Part shown: piece by piece, positions 18,977 to 28,958 of the stretch
Position numbering within the stretch: the stretch's first letter is position 1
How the letters are laid out: every line of letters begins with the position of its first letter
Assembly (NCBI RefSeq): GCF_008389435.1
Contig: NZ_VUYS01000005.1
Coordinates: 1-64,000, forward strand
Direction of reading: 5' to 3'
Origin: Candidatus Nitrosocosmicus agrestis
GTDB taxonomy: Archaea > Thermoproteota > Nitrososphaeria > Nitrososphaerales > Nitrososphaeraceae
DNA length: 64,000 bases
The notes under the pieces: model-generated
What the model saw: only the letters and a program-made list of their open reading frames with translations
What the model was told of the DNA's origin: nothing
Databases searched by the model: none
Translations under genes and position numbers: made by a program

Positions 18977-21900
18977 TTACAGATAATCTAATAATGTTGG
19001 TTGTATTTGTTTTGATTGAAATATGAAATTTAATTCAACAATTAAGGATTCTACTCTACTTTTTAAATAATTTGTTACCTTAAAATTATTGCACATATTT
19101 TCTGCCAGAAGAACATATTTTTCAACAGAACCTCTAGTAACAGTTTGCAACAAACTGTTATCACAAACTAAACATCTACCATATAACGGCATTCTTCTAT
19201 ATTTTTCTCCACATTTATTGCATCGAAAGGCCTGTGACGAATATGAACGCATGTTACCCATAATATCAGGGATTATATGCGTGGTTAGAACCATCGAAAT
19301 TACTTCGTTTGTATCAACAGAATTAATAAGATTTGCGGTTGCTATTTGCATTTCTAGTTTTTCAGTCATTGTATTTAAGGTAGAATATGCACTTCTGTTT
19401 ACGTCCGATATTAATACACTACTTAGATGAGTAAATCCATAGTCATAGAATTGTTTATTGGTTCCTATGCGATTTTTCAAAATTTCTATCGAATCAGAAA
19501 CTTCCGAAGCTTTGACTTCTGACCAAGTTTTTTGATAAAAATTGAGAGGATATTTTCCTACGACATCGATGTTGTGAGCTTGTCGCTGAACCTCATGAGG
19601 TAATACAATTGGCTGTATTAGTAATGGAGCATCCATCAAACCGCCAATTTTATCAGGCAAATATGAGTACGAAAAATTTAGGAAGGCATCGAATAAAAGT
19701 ATGATAGAGTCAGCATCGCCATCGCAATCCCTTCTCTTTGCTGAATGCCAAACAGGTGAGCCCAGACAAACTTGTGATTCTGTATATCCTATGATTCTTC
19801 CAATTATGCCCACAGATGTATGCGGAGCTAATCCCACTATTAGATGTCCAATCAGATCACTTTCATCATAGGCATTATAAACTGGTGGTAAATTGTATAA
19901 ACTAACCATTTCCTCATCGATAAATTTTGCAGTTTTCAAAAGATATTTTGCGGAGTCTAATGGAATAATTACATCTTGAATTAACAACTCGATTATTTGT
20001 TTATCAGAGGTTACCTCGATATTTTTATAATCTAGTACATATCCTAAATCTCTTAACCTTGAAATAGACGTTTTTATGAAAGATGGCATAAAATGAGTGA
20101 GTGGTTCGTTAGTTGCATCAAACCTTATAGTTCCATCTTTAAATACAGATAAGCCACATTTTTGTCTTAAGATTCCTTTTTCTATTTGTTCGGCTTCTTT
20201 ATCTTTTCCCATCAGCGATTTTACGCCCTTTAAGGGAGGATCAATTCTCACTCCTAATTTGGCTTCAGCTCTTGCCATTAATGTTTTTAAAGGAAATTTA
20301 ATAGGAGAAAATGTTTTATATTCATTACCACATTTCAAACACTTGTTCCTAGTCTTTGAGATAGCAAGATTGTCAATGTCCAAATCAAGAGATTCAATCT
20401 TGCATACCTTGCAAAAATGCTTAATGGGAGTAGGTTGGTTACAATGGTTACAATTTGTACCTAAGGATGGAATATTACAATTATAACAAAACCTATTAGA
20501 TTTCTCAGAATAGAAAGAATCAGTATTTGAAGCTTTTATTAGGTCTCTCATAGGTCCACCTTTGTTACCTACAGGAAATAACACGTGAATTGGTGGTTTC
20601 ATCTTGCGTTCTGCAGCCTTTTCAGGTCGGCCTACTCGAACAGATATAGAGGATGAAAATTTTGAGCGTATTTGAATGACTGAAATTGAATTTATCAGTT
20701 TAATAACATTTAGTTTTGCTTCTCCCTTCTCAGTCATTAAATTCTTTATCATAGATTCTAAATTTTGTTTGATTCTATTCTTTTGTAAATTATCAAATAA
20801 TACTGAAAATGGGATCGTATCGTTAGTATCATATAGGGATAGAAATGTTTGTTGAAATTCTGGTATACATAAGCACAGTAATGCTAAAATTTGGGATTCA
20901 TCTTGAAATATTATTGTATTCGTTGATGAGTTCATTTTGTGAAATACCCCAATTTTTTCAAAAATACTTTTTAGTTTATGATCCTGAATGATCTCAATCT
21001 GTTTATTATTAGAGTCCTGATTCGCTCCTACTTTATACGAGGAAATGAAGTATAGTAATGCATTTCGAACATATAAAAAATCTTTAATCGAAATCGCTTC
21101 CCAATAGAAGGAATATTTTGGGTGAAGTGGGACATCAAATATTACAGAAATTTTTAATGCCTCTATAAATAGTGGTATAATGCTAGGGTGTGTACTTAGC
21201 TCACTTAATCTCCCTTTTGCGAAGCTAAGCATCACTTTTGAGGTATTAAAATTTTTAACTCGTTCAAATAATTCCTGCGACCATATTTCTTCAACATAGC
21301 TGGCTGGTAGAAGTTGAGCATTATTTTCAAGAAAATCACCATAACTGATCAGAATATCTCCTAAAAATAAGATCTTCACAACACGAGGTCTCAAATTTAA
21401 GGCTTGTTCAATAGTATTGATCTGTAATACAGTCCCGTCGTCTAGTTTTACTATGGGTGGTTCTATTGTGTCAACCAGTGCTATAGTAGATGCTTTCCCA
21501 GGAACATCCATTTTAATTTGTGTTCCTACAACTATGGCCGAGTTTAGTAGTATTGGAATAGTTTTATGTATACCTACAGTTGCAAACCCCGTATTAAAGC
21601 ATCTCCCATATCTTAGCCTAAACCCACCGATTTTCTTGCTCATGGATAGAACAGGTCTTCCTGTAATTACCTCTGACATTCTATGGCTAACCGTATCATC
21701 ATCGCCGGTCTGAATTGCACCATTTAAATTCGCTAGCCAGTTCCATCCTTCCAAACCTAAAGACTCGACTAATTTCATTAACTTCCTACATCTCCCAATT
21801 AATCCGTCATTCATGACTCGAAGTGCTCCTCCTCTAACGCGATCGGTTTTAATCCTTTTCATCTCTCTATGGATTACAAGTTCGACTGGATCCGTATCCA

Positions 21901-22594
21901 CACCGTCGATTTCAACAGGTAGATTTGAAATGCAATAATCTACATCCTTGTCTAGAACCTTAAATTGGAAGTTACCTACTTCTCTTTCATACAACCTTAA
22001 TTCTTCAATAAATCTACCAGTTTCATCATCAAAAGAGTTTGTTTGATACTTAGACAATCCGACGACTTGTCTAACATGATCGGCAATCAACATAGTTAAA
22101 GCTGCTTCAGTTCCTCCCGCCGATCTTATCGGTCCTGCAAAAGAGATAGATAAATATTGAGTGCCGTCCTTATTATTTTTTATTTGAACATCAGAAATAC
22201 CTTGTAGAGGTGCAACGGTTACTCCCTCTGTAACGACGGCCAAACTTACTCTAACTGCATTCTCAAGTCTCATCCTAAGATCTCCGGATCCATATTCTCC
22301 CGTGGCTATCTCTTCCGCTATTTTAAGAGCTGCCTTTTCTTTAGAAGTAACATTCAGTAATGCTCTAAGTCTATCCGAAATGTCTATATTATGCATTTTT
22401 GCAACTCTGTCTGACAAATCATAGGCTATTTTTGGTTCAACATGATTAGTAACATCTAATCCTCTTTCTCGCGCTTTTTGAGCTAAATTGTAAAGTCTAC
22501 TCACCTGATTCAATAAATCATTGTGATATTGGTCATAGTAACTAGGCATGGAAATATTGCCAAGTCGTACCTTAGATTCCTCGATTAAATCCAT
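18977..22594 (-). CDS. polC: DNA polymerase D large subunit (DP2), catalytic
   Basis: The catalytic subunit of the archaeal replicative polymerase, about 1205 residues without any intein. The N-terminal dimerisation region is followed by a GGTEAALT segment near residue 165. A Cys-rich zinc module (residues about 700-760) with several CxxC pairs comes next. The catalytic motif RDCDGDADS lies near residue 960. A C-terminal zinc knuckle (CNKCGEKYRRMPLYG, near 1130) precedes the tail, which binds DP1. The start is taken at ATG 22592-22594; a GTG nine bases upstream is also possible. It lies immediately after the GGGP synthase gene on the same strand, suggesting one transcript. Confidence 0.94.
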   Translation of the reverse strand: MDLIEESKVRLGNISMPSYYDQYHNDLLNQVSRLYNLAQKARERGLDVTNHVEPKIAYDLSDRVAKMHNIDISDRLRALLNVTSKEKAALKIAEEIATGEYGSGDLRMRLENAVRVSLAVVTEGVTVAPLQGISDVQIKNNKDGTQYLSISFAGPIRSAGGTEAALTMLIADHVRQVVGLSKYQTNSFDDETGRFIEELRLYEREVGNFQFKVLDKDVDYCISNLPVEIDGVDTDPVELVIHREMKRIKTDRVRGGALRVMNDGLIGRCRKLMKLVESLGLEGWNWLANLNGAIQTGDDDTVSHRMSEVITGRPVLSMSKKIGGFRLRYGRCFNTGFATVGIHKTIPILLNSAIVVGTQIKMDVPGKASTIALVDTIEPPIVKLDDGTVLQINTIEQALNLRPRVVKILFLGDILISYGDFLENNAQLLPASYVEEIWSQELFERVKNFNTSKVMLSFAKGRLSELSTHPSIIPLFIEALKISVIFDVPLHPKYSFYWEAISIKDFLYVRNALLYFISSYKVGANQDSNNKQIEIIQDHKLKSIFEKIGVFHKMNSSTNTIIFQDESQILALLCLCIPEFQQTFLSLYDTNDTIPFSVLFDNLQKNRIKQNLESMIKNLMTEKGEAKLNVIKLINSISVIQIRSKFSSSISVRVGRPEKAAERKMKPPIHVLFPVGNKGGPMRDLIKASNTDSFYSEKSNRFCYNCNIPSLGTNCNHCNQPTPIKHFCKVCKIESLDLDIDNLAISKTRNKCLKCGNEYKTFSPIKFPLKTLMARAEAKLGVRIDPPLKGVKSLMGKDKEAEQIEKGILRQKCGLSVFKDGTIRFDATNEPLTHFMPSFIKTSISRLRDLGYVLDYKNIEVTSDKQIIELLIQDVIIPLDSAKYLLKTAKFIDEEMVSLYNLPPVYNAYDESDLIGHLIVGLAPHTSVGIIGRIIGYTESQVCLGSPVWHSAKRRDCDGDADSIILLFDAFLNFSYSYLPDKIGGLMDAPLLIQPIVLPHEVQRQAHNIDVVGKYPLNFYQKTWSEVKASEVSDSIEILKNRIGTNKQFYDYGFTHLSSVLISDVNRSAYSTLNTMTEKLEMQIATANLINSVDTNEVISMVLTTHIIPDIMGNMRSYSSQAFRCNKCGEKYRRMPLYGRCLVCDNSLLQTVTRGSVEKYVLLAENMCNNFKVTNYLKSRVESLIVELNFIFQSKQIQPTLLDYL

Positions 22595-22613
22595 AGTATG
22601 CACTAGTATATGT

Positions 22614-23835: not shown

Positions 23836-24600
23836 GTGAATATCACATACAATAAAGTTATATCACAGTCTATCATATCATTATTTGTGAGCATAGATCT
23901 TGTGACAATAGTGTTGTATTACTCCATTATTCCATTTGTATCTGCTTTAATTATTTCGATTCTAGCTATGCATGGATATACTAAGCTTGAATTCAAGAGT
24001 TTTAATTTTCGGAAAAACGAGTTAAAGATACAAAATATTGAAAAGGAGACAAAAGTTCAAGGTCAAAAAACTGAATTTATTATCGAGCAGTTTAACTTAA
24101 TTTACGAGAGGATTAAAAAAACTGATGAAAAAATAGATGACCTTCAAAAAATGATAAAATGGATGGATGATAAACTAATTGAGACGGAAAGGATTGCCAT
24201 CAAATCACAGAATAATGTAACACCACCAATTCAATATTACACAAGTAACTCAAATAATGGGACATCACATCCTCATCACGATATAATATCACCGAATTTA
24301 ACTCAATCCACTGACCAAAGTGATGAGCGTCAGAATGGAACTATAGAGTATATATTAAAGAAATTAAGTGACGAATCTTTAACAACTAAAGAAATCCAAA
24401 GAGTAGTGGGAAGAACAAGAGAGCACACTTCCAGGATAATGAAAAAACTCTATGATGAAAAACTTGTTGATAGAGATATGAATATGAAGCCATTCAAATA
24501 TACTATTACAAATGAAGGTCGTAAACGGTTGTCAAAGCATTCTGTTTCAGAAATTCATTCTCGTTTGAGTGGTCCAAAGTTGGAGAGTGTAGTAGATTAG
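23836..24600 (+). CDS. membrane-anchored winged-helix protein with coiled coil
   Basis: In order: two hydrophobic segments (residues about 8-27 and 30-47), a coiled coil (about 60-125, Lys/Glu/Ile-rich), a low-complexity linker (about 125-165), and a C-terminal winged helix (about 165-235: LTTKEIQRVVGRTREHTSRIMKKLYDE and the wing FKYTITNEGRKRL). This is a membrane-tethered putative DNA-binding protein, MarR/ArsR-like in the HTH. GTG start at 23836, 30 bases after the previous gene. Its 3' end overlaps the convergent gene by 95 bases. Tethering DNA or a promoter to the membrane is a reasonable inference, not shown. Confidence 0.7.
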   Translation: MNITYNKVISQSIISLFVSIDLVTIVLYYSIIPFVSALIISILAMHGYTKLEFKSFNFRKNELKIQNIEKETKVQGQKTEFIIEQFNLIYERIKKTDEKIDDLQKMIKWMDDKLIETERIAIKSQNNVTPPIQYYTSNSNNGTSHPHHDIISPNLTQSTDQSDERQNGTIEYILKKLSDESLTTKEIQRVVGRTREHTSRIMKKLYDEKLVDRDMNMKPFKYTITNEGRKRLSKHSVSEIHSRLSGPKLESVVD

Positions 24601-25084
24601 AATGAGTGTCAGATAAAATATCACTATTTGATACAGTTTCCATTTTATTTCTAATTAATTTATAAAGCCATTCTTTTCCTCGTTTAGTTCGTATCAATTT
24701 GTGCTTTTCAAAATATCTAGATAGATATGTCGATATTAAGCTGAGTTGAATTGGATCGCGGTATAACTCCTCATAAGAATCTGCGATATCAGTTGATGTA
24801 AACGAACTATACGCAAAATTATTTTCAATCAACCTCCAAATCTTGGACTCAATCGATCGATTTGTATTATCTGATTTAACATCATTCTTATAGAAATTAC
24901 TGCTTTGGCTAGTATGATATTCTTGCTCATTGATTGATTCTTCTCTAGTGGTATTCAAAGACTCAACCAGTTGAAGTACTTTTTGAATTTTATCTTTTGA
25001 TAGATTGCCTTCTAAGGACAAATTATACTTCCCACCATCGGCATCTTCCAATTCAATCTTAATTTTCTTCTTTGCAGTGGACAA
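24506..25084 (-). CDS. hypothetical protein with C-terminal winged-helix-like region
   Basis: The 192-residue protein has an N-terminal part (residues 1-45) with alternating charged strands (KKKIKIELEDADGGKYNLSL), a polar linker, and a conserved-looking helical region (residues about 80-150: IWRLIENNFAYSSFTSTDIA and LSRYFEKHKLIRTKRGKEWL) that reads like a winged helix. TTG start at 25082-25084. The last part of the tail lies in the overlap with the convergent gene and is Ser/Asn-rich, so it may be a late extension. The promoter faces the origin region. Confidence 0.6.
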   Translation of the reverse strand: MSTAKKKIKIELEDADGGKYNLSLEGNLSKDKIQKVLQLVESLNTTREESINEQEYHTSQSSNFYKNDVKSDNTNRSIESKIWRLIENNFAYSSFTSTDIADSYEELYRDPIQLSLISTYLSRYFEKHKLIRTKRGKEWLYKLIRNKMETVSNSDILSDTHSNLLHSPTLDHSNENEFLKQNALTTVYDLHL

Positions 25085-25241
25085 TCTACCTATCTGTTAA
25101 CTAAGATAACTTGTGTTAACTTAACATTATAGAATAAAAAATGATAACTATTTGATTAGTTTTTGTTAACAAAACAAGCATAATCTACTCAAGTTTTTGA
25201 AATACCAAGTGAATGATCCTTTTTTAATTCTTTTGAATGCT

Positions 25242-25282
25242 GTTCCAATGGAAATGAAGGGGTTGATTCACCCCTATTAACA
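25242..25282 (+). repeat. ORB1, 41-bp origin repeat
   Basis: The first copy begins with GTTCCAATGGAA (dyad TTCCA-A-TGGAA), continues with ATGAAGGGG (G-string) and closes with a TTGATTCACCCC arm, so AGGGG and CCCCT form a second small inverted repeat. This is the layout of archaeal origin recognition boxes bound by Orc1/Cdc6. Confidence 0.88.
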
Positions 25283-25302
25283 GAGTGATCTGCAAATTTT
25301 AG

Positions 25303-25343
25303 GTTCCAATGGAAATGAAGGGGTTGATTCACCCCTATTAACA
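25303..25343 (+). repeat. ORB2, 41-bp origin repeat
   Basis: Identical to ORB1 over 41 bases and in the same orientation, 61 bases downstream (about six helical turns, so both copies face the same side of the DNA). Confidence 0.88.
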
Positions 25344-25393
25344 ATTTTTCTATAACTGTTAATAAGAAAGATAATATTATAATAAAGAGCCCA

Positions 25394-25411
25394 GACCCCT
25401 TTATTTCTCAT
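25394..25411 (-). repeat. degenerate ORB, inverted
   Basis: On the minus strand this reads GAGAAATAAAGGGGT, matching 12 of 15 bases of the ORB core TGGAAATGAAGGGGT, including the GAAAT and G-string parts. It lacks the left dyad arm. Inverted orientation relative to ORB1/2 is common at archaeal origins. Confidence 0.5.
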
Positions 25412-25550
25412 GTAATAACTATAATTTTAATGGAGGATTATGGAATATTATATTTTATTATTATGTATAAAATAGTTGATTAACCTGTTTAAAATAGAAT
25501 GTTAATAACAAATAACAATTTAACTTGGTATTATTATTTATTATCACTCG

Positions 25551-25570
25551 AATGGAAAAAATGGGGTGTG
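25551..25570 (+). repeat. degenerate ORB upstream of orc1 start
   Basis: AATGGAAAAAATGGGGTGTG keeps TGGAAA and GGGGT at ORB spacing (12 of 15 core bases). It lies 28 bases before the orc1/cdc6 start codon, where Orc1 binding could also autoregulate its own gene. Confidence 0.5.
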
Positions 25571-25597
25571 CCCTTTCTCAATTAGAATATTTTAATA

Positions 25598-26824
25598 ATG
25601 AAAGTGAGTATTATGGATTCAGATTACTTAGATAATATCTTCGATAAAGCGGTTAAAGGTACTGACCTTATCAAAAACAGAAAAACTTTGACTATCGATT
25701 ATGTTCCTGAAAAACTTCCATTCAGGGACGAAGAATCTAAAATTATAGCACAGGTATTATCAGTAGTGCTGAAAGGAGGGAGGCCATCAAATTTATTGGT
25801 ATTTGGAAAGCCTGGAACAGGAAAAACAGCAGTTGTAAAAAATGTTATTACTAGGTTAAAAAGAAAATCTATTGAACATGGTGTAGAAATAACTGTTACT
25901 ATTATTAATGCAAAAACCTCTAACACGTCATACAAAGTATTATATGATATCGCTGAGGACATGGGAATCAATAGGTTTGACAAAAAGGTTAGAGTTCACT
26001 TCACAGGATTATCAATGGGTGAAGCTACTGATAGGATTCTAGAATTTTTAAAGAGAAATAACTTACACGTAGTGTTGGTAATAGATGAAATTGATTCTCT
26101 TGTTGAGAAAAATGGAGACGATGTATTGTATAGTCTTACTAGAGCAAATGAACGCTTGTTGGATAGTGGATTCATATCATTAATTGGAATATCAAATAGC
26201 CTCACATTTAAAGATAAGTTGGATCCTAGGGTTAGAAGCAGTCTGAGCGAAGAAGAAATTGTTTTTAACCCTTATACAGTAATTCAATTAAGAGAAATTC
26301 TAAATGACCGTTCTAAACTCGCATTTAATGAAGGATCAATAAGTCAAGCAGCGATTAACTTATGCGCTGCTGTTGCTGGTAAAGAAAATGGCGATGCTAG
26401 AAAAGCTATCGATCTCTTGCGAGTTGCTGCAGAAATAGCAGAACGAGAAAGAGCTGATATGGTTAATGAAAATCATATACGGGCAGCACAAGAAAAAATT
26501 GAAAAGGATACAAATTATGAAGTAATTAGAAATTCAACTACCCATACGAAAATTATTATTTTATCAATACTAAAATCTCAATCAGGAATGACTGGAGATG
26601 TATATGACATATATGTTTCTCTTTGCAATCGAATTGAACATGATTCTCTAACTCAGAGACGGGTAACACAGATAATTAGCGAATTGGATCAGTTAGGTTT
26701 AATCACATCAAATGTAGTAAGTCATGGAAGGTATGGTCGTTCCCAGATAATTAAGATTGCAGTCTCACCCGAAACAGTAACTAATGCCCTAAAGGATGAT
26801 AGTTTTATTTCTATATTATTATAA
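25598..26824 (+). CDS. cdc6: origin-binding initiator Orc1/Cdc6
   Basis: An AAA+ initiator of 408 residues. Walker A GKPGTGKT at about residues 70-77, Walker B VIDEID at about 162-167, sensor 1 LIGISNS near 197, sensor 2 GDARKAIDLL near 268, and a C-terminal winged helix (about 310-405) that reads origin DNA. The ATG at 25613 is an alternative start. Position next to the ORB repeats fits self-regulation and origin binding. Downstream sits the first copy of the winged-helix gene triplet, about 110 bases away. Confidence 0.94.
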   Translation: MKVSIMDSDYLDNIFDKAVKGTDLIKNRKTLTIDYVPEKLPFRDEESKIIAQVLSVVLKGGRPSNLLVFGKPGTGKTAVVKNVITRLKRKSIEHGVEITVTIINAKTSNTSYKVLYDIAEDMGINRFDKKVRVHFTGLSMGEATDRILEFLKRNNLHVVLVIDEIDSLVEKNGDDVLYSLTRANERLLDSGFISLIGISNSLTFKDKLDPRVRSSLSEEEIVFNPYTVIQLREILNDRSKLAFNEGSISQAAINLCAAVAGKENGDARKAIDLLRVAAEIAERERADMVNENHIRAAQEKIEKDTNYEVIRNSTTHTKIIILSILKSQSGMTGDVYDIYVSLCNRIEHDSLTQRRVTQIISELDQLGLITSNVVSHGRYGRSQIIKIAVSPETVTNALKDDSFISILL

Positions 26825-26847: not shown

Positions 26848-27186
26848 CTTTCTGATCGAATGTTCTGATCGAAAGACATGATCGAATGGACAGCTTTTTA
26901 TAAATACTTGATCAACAATGTTCTATTCGATAATAATGAAATATAGAAGTAGAACAGAAATAACTGTATTAATACTAGAAGCAGCAAACGGTGGAGCTAC
27001 AAAGACAAAAATCATGTACAAATCATTCCTTTCATATGCACAGTTAAAAGAATACTTTACAATGTTAATTGAGAATGGTTTGTTAGAATATGAAGATGGA
27101 ACTCAAAAGTATAGAACTACAGAAAAGGGTCTAAGATTATTAAAGATATATAATCAGATAGAGGAATTAATTCCAAGTACTATAAA
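26848..27186 (+). repeat. repeat copy A (operator + promoter + winged-helix gene)
   Basis: A 339-bp segment identical, as far as I can compare, to copy B at 27709-28047. It covers three iterons, the TATA box and all but the last codons of the gene. Confidence 0.93.
26853..26886 (+). promoter_or_regulatory. three 13-bp iterons TGATCGAA, operator of copy A
   Basis: TGATCGAA occurs at 26853, 26866 and 26879, exactly 13 bases apart, directly upstream of a TATA element (TTTTATAAAT, about 26895-26904). A protein bound here would touch the TBP/TFB site, so repression or activation of the downstream gene is likely. Autoregulation by the encoded winged-helix protein is a simple inference. Confidence 0.75.
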
Positions 27187-27190
27187 GTAA
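26936..27190 (+). CDS. winged-helix DNA-binding protein, copy A
   Basis: Residues 1-84 form one HTH_45-type winged helix: MKYRSRTEITVLILEAANGG, helix KTKIMYKSFLSYAQLKEYF, wing near KYRTTEKGLRLL. The start is set at ATG 26936, since it lies about 34 bases after the TATA centre and matches the start of the 12.3-kb paralogue; the ATG 18 bases upstream is too close to the TATA box. Near-identical to copies B and C. Confidence 0.85.
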   Translation: MKYRSRTEITVLILEAANGGATKTKIMYKSFLSYAQLKEYFTMLIENGLLEYEDGTQKYRTTEKGLRLLKIYNQIEELIPSTIK

Positions 27191-27705: not shown

Positions 27706-28047
27706 CACCTTTCTGATCGAATGTTCTGATCGAAAGACATGATCGAATGGACAGCTTTTTATAAATACTTGATCAACAATGTTCTATTCGATAATAATGA
27801 AATATAGAAGTAGAACAGAAATAACTGTATTAATACTAGAAGCAGCAAACGGTGGAGCTACAAAGACAAAAATCATGTACAAATCATTCCTTTCATATGC
27901 ACAGTTAAAAGAATACTTTACAATGTTAATTGAGAATGGTTTGTTAGAATATGAAGATGGAACTCAAAAGTATAGAACTACAGAAAAGGGTCTAAGATTA
28001 TTAAAGATATATAATCAGATAGAGGAATTAATTCCAAGTACTATAAA
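27706..28047 (+). repeat. repeat copy B
   Basis: Identical to copy A from 27709 to 28047, at an offset of 861 bases. Its left edge also shares CACCTTTCTG with copy C, three bases longer than with A. Confidence 0.93.
27714..27747 (+). promoter_or_regulatory. three 13-bp iterons, operator of copy B
   Basis: TGATCGAA at 27714, 27727 and 27740, same 13-base spacing and same TATA box as copy A. Confidence 0.75.
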
Positions 28048-28072
28048 CTCGTCTAATAGAGAGCCTTTTTAA
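27797..28072 (+). CDS. winged-helix DNA-binding protein, copy B
   Basis: Same protein as copy A up to the Ser-Thr-Ile near residue 83; the homology then ends and the reading frame continues into unique sequence (NSSNREPF), so the C-terminus is eight residues longer. Start at ATG 27797 as in copy A. Convergent pair with copy C around the uspA gene. Confidence 0.82.
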   Translation: MKYRSRTEITVLILEAANGGATKTKIMYKSFLSYAQLKEYFTMLIENGLLEYEDGTQKYRTTEKGLRLLKIYNQIEELIPSTINSSNREPF

Positions 28073-28603: not shown

Positions 28604-28867
28604 TTAGTATTTTGTTTGTATTTGAGGTAATATTTCTTCTATCTGATTATATATCTTTAATAATCTTAGACCCTTTTCTGTAGTTCTATACATATTTACC
28701 AATCCATCTTCATATTCTAACAAACCATTCTCAATTAACATTGTAAAGTATTCTTTTAACTGTGCATATGAAAGGAATGATTTGTACATGATTTTTGTCT
28801 TTGTAGCTCCACCGTTTGCTGCTTCTAGTATTAATACAGTTATTTCTGTTCTACTTCTATATTTCAT
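28604..28867 (-). CDS. winged-helix DNA-binding protein, copy C
   Basis: Identical to A and B for the first roughly 53 codons, then differs: where A/B read DGTQKYRTT, this copy reads DGLVNMYRTT (9 bases replaced by 12), and the end is IEEILPQIQTKY. The fold is intact. The start is ATG 28865-28867, as in the other copies. Confidence 0.82.
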   Translation of the reverse strand: MKYRSRTEITVLILEAANGGATKTKIMYKSFLSYAQLKEYFTMLIENGLLEYEDGLVNMYRTTEKGLRLLKIYNQIEEILPQIQTKY

Positions 28868-28958
28868 TATTATCGAATAGAACATTGTTGATCAAGTATT
28901 TATAAAAAGCTGTCCATTCGATCATGTCTTTCGATCAGAACATTCGATCAGAAAGGTG
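28639..28958 (-). repeat. repeat copy C, inverted
   Basis: In inverse orientation to B, it matches B over 256 consecutive bases (28703-28958 against 27706-27961), then continues with scattered differences to about 28639. Confidence 0.9.
28917..28950 (-). promoter_or_regulatory. three 13-bp iterons, operator of copy C
   Basis: The three TGATCGAA iterons (TTCGATCA on the + strand) at 28917, 28930 and 28943, identical in spacing to copies A and B. Confidence 0.75.

Follow-up and report, generated by a model that had tools for sequence, protein, structure and literature searches.

The closest known counterparts of the locus considered here are archaeal origins in which ORBs surround an AT-rich region. 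Sulfolobus oriC1 requires inverted ORB2 and ORB3 around its duplex unwinding element (DUE) (PMC12141716), and in the minimal oriC1 of Haloarcula, inverted ORBs enclose an AT-rich region (PMC3936714). A common archaeal ORB motif, TCCA[CG]T[TG]GAAA[TC][GA]AAGGGGT, has been reported (PMC4164010). The gap between orc1/cdc6 and a divergent gene analysed here is very probably, as judged from its sequence and that of its relatives, the chromosomal oriC of a Nitrosocosmicus-like thaumarchaeon, an ammonia oxidiser of soil. As such it is an ordinary ORB-type archaeal origin beside orc1, i.e. a known kind of thing. The initial annotation had read it as a replication origin, a reading which is now well supported by the conserved boxes and their layout, the single initiator gene, the AT-rich element between inverted boxes, and a skew switch near the locus in closed relatives.

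The probable origin gap and its neighbours

In the window, i.e. the whole stretch of 64,000 nucleotides that was analysed, the origin gap (25085-25597, 513 bp, unstranded) contains four ORBs (A-D) and a cluster of TTAACA/TGTTAA motifs. It is bounded by orc1/cdc6 (25598-26824, +) and by the gene for an uncharacterised winged-helix protein (24506-25084, -), which diverges from orc1 across the origin. The neighbour had been named as orc1/cdc6 from the outset, and rightly so, in that Pfam recognises Cdc6 domains in it and Orc1 structures in the PDB match it, with the protein aligning over most of its length to the Orc1 proteins of Aeropyrum (2v1u, E 9e-95) and Sulfolobus (2qby_A, E 8e-87). It is the only Orc1/Cdc6 gene found in the 3.22-Mb genome (43 contigs). 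Box D ends 30 bp from the orc1 start, so that the boxes adjoin the initiator gene as in an Orc1/ORB-type oriC; comparison with the loci of relatives L003 and L004 suggests that the true start is the second ATG, at 25613.

Other genes in the neighbourhood include that for the DNA polymerase D large subunit (DP2; 18977-22603, -), a replication gene a few kb from the origin. Just 3' of orc1, a small winged-helix (HTH_45) gene is present in three near-identical copies (26918-27190, +; 27779-28072, +; 28604-28885, -), and it occurs as single copies beside orc1 in some relatives. In one relative (G012:C257:17225-21027, locus L084) the orc1 region seems to be disrupted and in part duplicated, and in-frame stops are numerous, which may reflect decay or an assembly error.

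Predicted ORBs and the AT-rich element

Two identical 41-bp repeats with an ORB dyad and G-string had been described, and are found as box A (25242-25282, +; 21-bp core 25243-25263) and box B (25303-25343, +; 21-bp core 25304-25324), lying 61 bp apart from start to start. The repeat is GTTCCAATGGAAATGAAGGGGTTGATTCACCCCTATTAACA; its core comprises the dyad TTCCA-A-TGGAA followed by the G-string AGGGGT and fits the common ORB motif (PMC4164010) everywhere except at the dyad centre, which is A here. The spacing was equated with six helical turns, which is only approximate because 61 bp corresponds to 5.8 turns at 10.5 bp per turn. A degenerate box in the opposite orientation and a further box just before the initiator start had likewise been noted, and both are present: box C (25395-25415, -; minus-strand sequence TTACATGAGAAATAAAGGGGT) has 3 mismatches to the ORB pattern, and box D (25547-25567, +; CTCGAATGGAAAAAATGGGGT), a degenerate direct box just 5' of orc1, has 2. 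The position and orientation of C are kept in relatives, as is D.

Such boxes are rare elsewhere. Scanning both strands of the 207-kb contig with the pattern YTCCANTGGAAANNNAGGGGT, allowing up to 3 mismatches, gave five ORB-like sites, four of which are inside the 513-bp gap. Genome-wide, the core occurs exactly twice with up to 2 mismatches, both times at this locus, and a reversed control pattern has no match.

The A/T-rich stretches said to separate the boxes are borne out by positions 25416-25546 (unstranded), a likely DUE of 131 bp and 16% GC, which falls in the lowest 0.14% of 130-bp windows by GC content. It is the C-D interval, and not that from A to B, that holds the lowest-GC part of the gap, so that the AT-rich element is flanked by inverted ORBs, C (-) and D (+). 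By analogy with Sulfolobus and Haloarcula oriC1, it is likely that C, the DUE and D form a melting module, with A and B as an upstream platform.

Conservation of the layout

When every locus is turned to a common orientation, each genus member examined has the layout A+ B+ C- D+, as do most Nitrososphaeraceae; elsewhere in the order and class it reappears in further families, with losses and family-specific drift of the core. All 13 genus members have A and B 61 bp apart; the A-B spacing is 60-62 bp in 34 genomes of the family, and in more distant genomes it is mostly 59-64 bp. The B-C distance is wider (about 77-103 bp) and more variable; the A-B spacing is therefore the more constrained. In three more distant relatives (L088, L092 and L053) the ORB is present in three copies, ~41 and ~61 bp apart, which corresponds to ~4 and ~6 helical turns. 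Judging from the loci compared, the recurrence of the A+ B+ C- D+ layout across the class appears to be a new detail, one not found in the literature searched.

The identity of A and B over all 41 bp (100%) might in itself be taken as a sign of a recent duplication or of an assembly artefact. However, independently assembled genomes throughout the family and class have the double box at the same spacing, which makes the chance of either practically negligible.

Concerted evolution of boxes A and B

The real peculiarity of the locus, as far as can be judged by aligning its relatives, is that the ~20 bp after the G-string evolve in concert in A and B. Over these 20 bp the two boxes of one genus member are 91% identical, compared with 77% (A-A), 84% (B-B) and 78% (A-B) between members, and none of 5000 shuffles of the partners reached the observed within-member identity. 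When changes are placed on an Orc1 tree, 12 of the 16 inferred for B match a change in A in both branch and base, where ~0.9 would be expected; across the whole family, 43 of 156 changes in B coincide with one in A (~10 expected). In the 10-bp 5' flanks no clear effect of this kind is seen.

The likeness of A and B is best accounted for by gene conversion, or by the 61-bp unit expanding and contracting, with selection keeping the core. It could instead be that, with no gene conversion, the specificity of Orc1 shifts and both boxes co-evolve with it, a proposal that draws on core changes common to all copies in some families, including GATGGTGT in place of AAGGGGT, and on the similar GGTGT ending of box D in L092 and L103. 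By contrast, boxes C and D do not carry the species-specific extension, and the extension varies among genus members even though their Orc1 proteins are 84-94% identical. Further, A and B differ at the first base in most genomes (T and C, respectively), and in some lineages this base has been overwritten, as would happen in a conversion tract. Co-evolution with Orc1 is thus rather unlikely as the source of the likeness, and conversion or turnover of the 61-bp unit is preferred. No literature on concerted evolution of ORBs was found, with subscription papers largely outside the reach of the search.

The likeness of A and B also bears on the inverted repeat AGGGG/CCCCT, which the initial annotation regarded as an extension of the ORB and as its unusual part. 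The arms are indeed present in both copies, but the view that they extend the ORB and are the notable part is not supported, because AGGGG...CCCCT is absent from 66 of the 68 A/B boxes of the family, the remaining two both being from this genome; since the copies are homogenised, these two count as one event. It was considered whether the arms, being carried by both 41-bp copies, might be a functional G-rich inverted repeat like that which enhances oriC1 in H. hispanica (PMC3936714). The H. hispanica repeat is, however, a separate element within the inverted ORB pair, not part of the G-string of each ORB (PMC3936714), and in the family sampled here an enhancer of that type is not conserved; such a function is very improbable, and the arms were rejected as a functional element.

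The winged-helix gene and the TTAACA/TGTTAA cluster

A homologue of the winged-helix gene opposite orc1 is present as one copy in 93 of the 94 good genomes sampled across the class, with orc1 likewise found in 93 of 94. Both genes are on one contig in 102 genomes, in 89 of which they are divergent within ~3 kb, mostly 440-570 bp apart; the remainder are mostly records starting at orc1, with the winged-helix gene at the far end, and in three of the 102 the winged-helix gene adjoins orc1 in the same direction. The predicted structure of the protein has a confident winged helix, before which the N-terminal part (strand-strand-helix) is of low confidence. Searches of Pfam, NCBIfam, PDB sequences and folds assigned it to no named family, giving weak, generic winged-helix matches (BlaI/MecI/CopY-like), and no prior description of the gene was found in the literature searched, most subscription papers lying outside it.

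The gap contains 9 copies of TTAACA/TGTTAA, compared with ~1 in shuffles, and no other 500-bp stretch of the contig is as rich in this motif (9 versus 4); in a relative of which ~820 kb was sampled, the gap is again the densest (9 versus 5). The related GTTAAC is ~25 times denser in the origin gap than in the genome. No prior description of the cluster was found. Most relatives have the cluster too. The motif is strong in the Nitrososphaeraceae and Nitrosopumilaceae-like families and missing in several others; since several families without it keep the winged-helix gene, the motif and the gene are not shown to belong together. It is tentatively proposed that the Nitrososphaeria origin may be a conserved module with three components: two phased ORBs that gene conversion keeps alike, a four-box Orc1 layout, and a second factor dedicated to the origin. 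This factor would be the winged-helix protein whose gene faces orc1, and it would act at the origin, with the TTAACA/TGTTAA repeats as a possible site, either in initiation or in the control of initiation.

Nucleotide skew and gene strand

Three closed genomes from the genus were each sampled as 40 pieces of 20 kb. GC skew is higher, and plus-strand genes are more numerous, to the right of the ORBs than in the left half, with permutation p values for skew of 0.09 (G006), 0.006 (G004) and 0.06 (G013) and for gene strand of 0.11, 0.03 and 0.002, respectively. The position that best halves these genomes by skew and gene strand lies 39 (G006), 127 (G004) and 50 kb (G013) from the ORBs; the joint chance of such closeness is ~0.004 if the genomes are independent, which related genomes are only in part. 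The skew signal is weak and tracks gene strand, and it is gone in gene-strand-balanced skew (two of the closed genomes, half the samples). The skew switch anticipated for this locus is seen within 39-127 kb of the ORBs in the three closed relatives, but not at 25.3 kb in the contig itself, which belongs to a genome in 43 contigs.

These data are relevant to the proposal that the boxes are mainly an operator, through which Orc1 controls two divergent genes, with replication starting elsewhere or by recombination. The proposal fits the proximity of box D to the orc1 start and the position of the gap, which in nearly all genomes lies between two divergent genes; origin-free replication is also known in Thermococcales, as mentioned in PMC5663688 and PMC11005403. 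However, an operator would not need as many as four boxes, two of them inverted about an element of 16% GC, skew and gene strand switch nearby in the three closed relatives, and a single mapped origin is reported for Nitrosopumilus maritimus, as noted in PMC4010727. A mainly regulatory role is very improbable on this balance.

Proposed mechanism and comparison with known systems

From the arrangement of the boxes we infer Orc1 binding, roles for the individual boxes, unwinding and autoregulation. Orc1 from the adjacent gene would bind the strong direct boxes A and B, which lie on nearly the same helix face, and also the weaker inverted pair C and D that brackets the low-GC element, where MCM would be loaded and the duplex would open. 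Orc1 on box D, shortly 5' of the orc1 start, could in addition restrain its own transcription. A and B would be kept alike by repeated gene conversion (or by slippage across the 61-bp unit), while selection holds the core.

No literature on Nitrosocosmicus origins or on ORBs in Nitrososphaera was found, subscription papers being mostly outside reach. The analysis maps the origin at base level for a major group of ammonia oxidisers from soil and sea, and offers a case in which a particular spacing and order of ORBs recur across a class of archaea. It also provides a natural example of predicted initiator-binding sites evolving in concert, and, in the near-universal uncharacterised gene beside the origin, a candidate replication factor that is directly testable.

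The locus resembles Sulfolobus oriC1 (Orc1-1 with ORB1-3) in having ORBs beside orc1, an inverted ORB pair around an AT-rich DUE (PMC12141716) and a homologous initiator (2qby_A). It differs in having four boxes, including the 61-bp direct pair, and one initiator gene where Sulfolobus has several; the Sulfolobus ucm motif was not identified at this locus. With Haloarcula hispanica oriC1 it shares inverted ORBs with G-strings that enclose an AT-rich region, and a position beside cdc6 (PMC3936714), but it has neither the extended halophile G-string nor a conserved counterpart of the haloarchaeal enhancer. Nitrosopumilus maritimus, a member of the same class, is likewise reported to have one origin (Pelve et al. 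2013, as cited in PMC4010727). The Nitrosopumilaceae-like genomes (family f9), in which the core has drifted to CTGGANTGGAAA, have the same order of winged-helix gene, gap and orc1, with a box pair ~62 bp apart.
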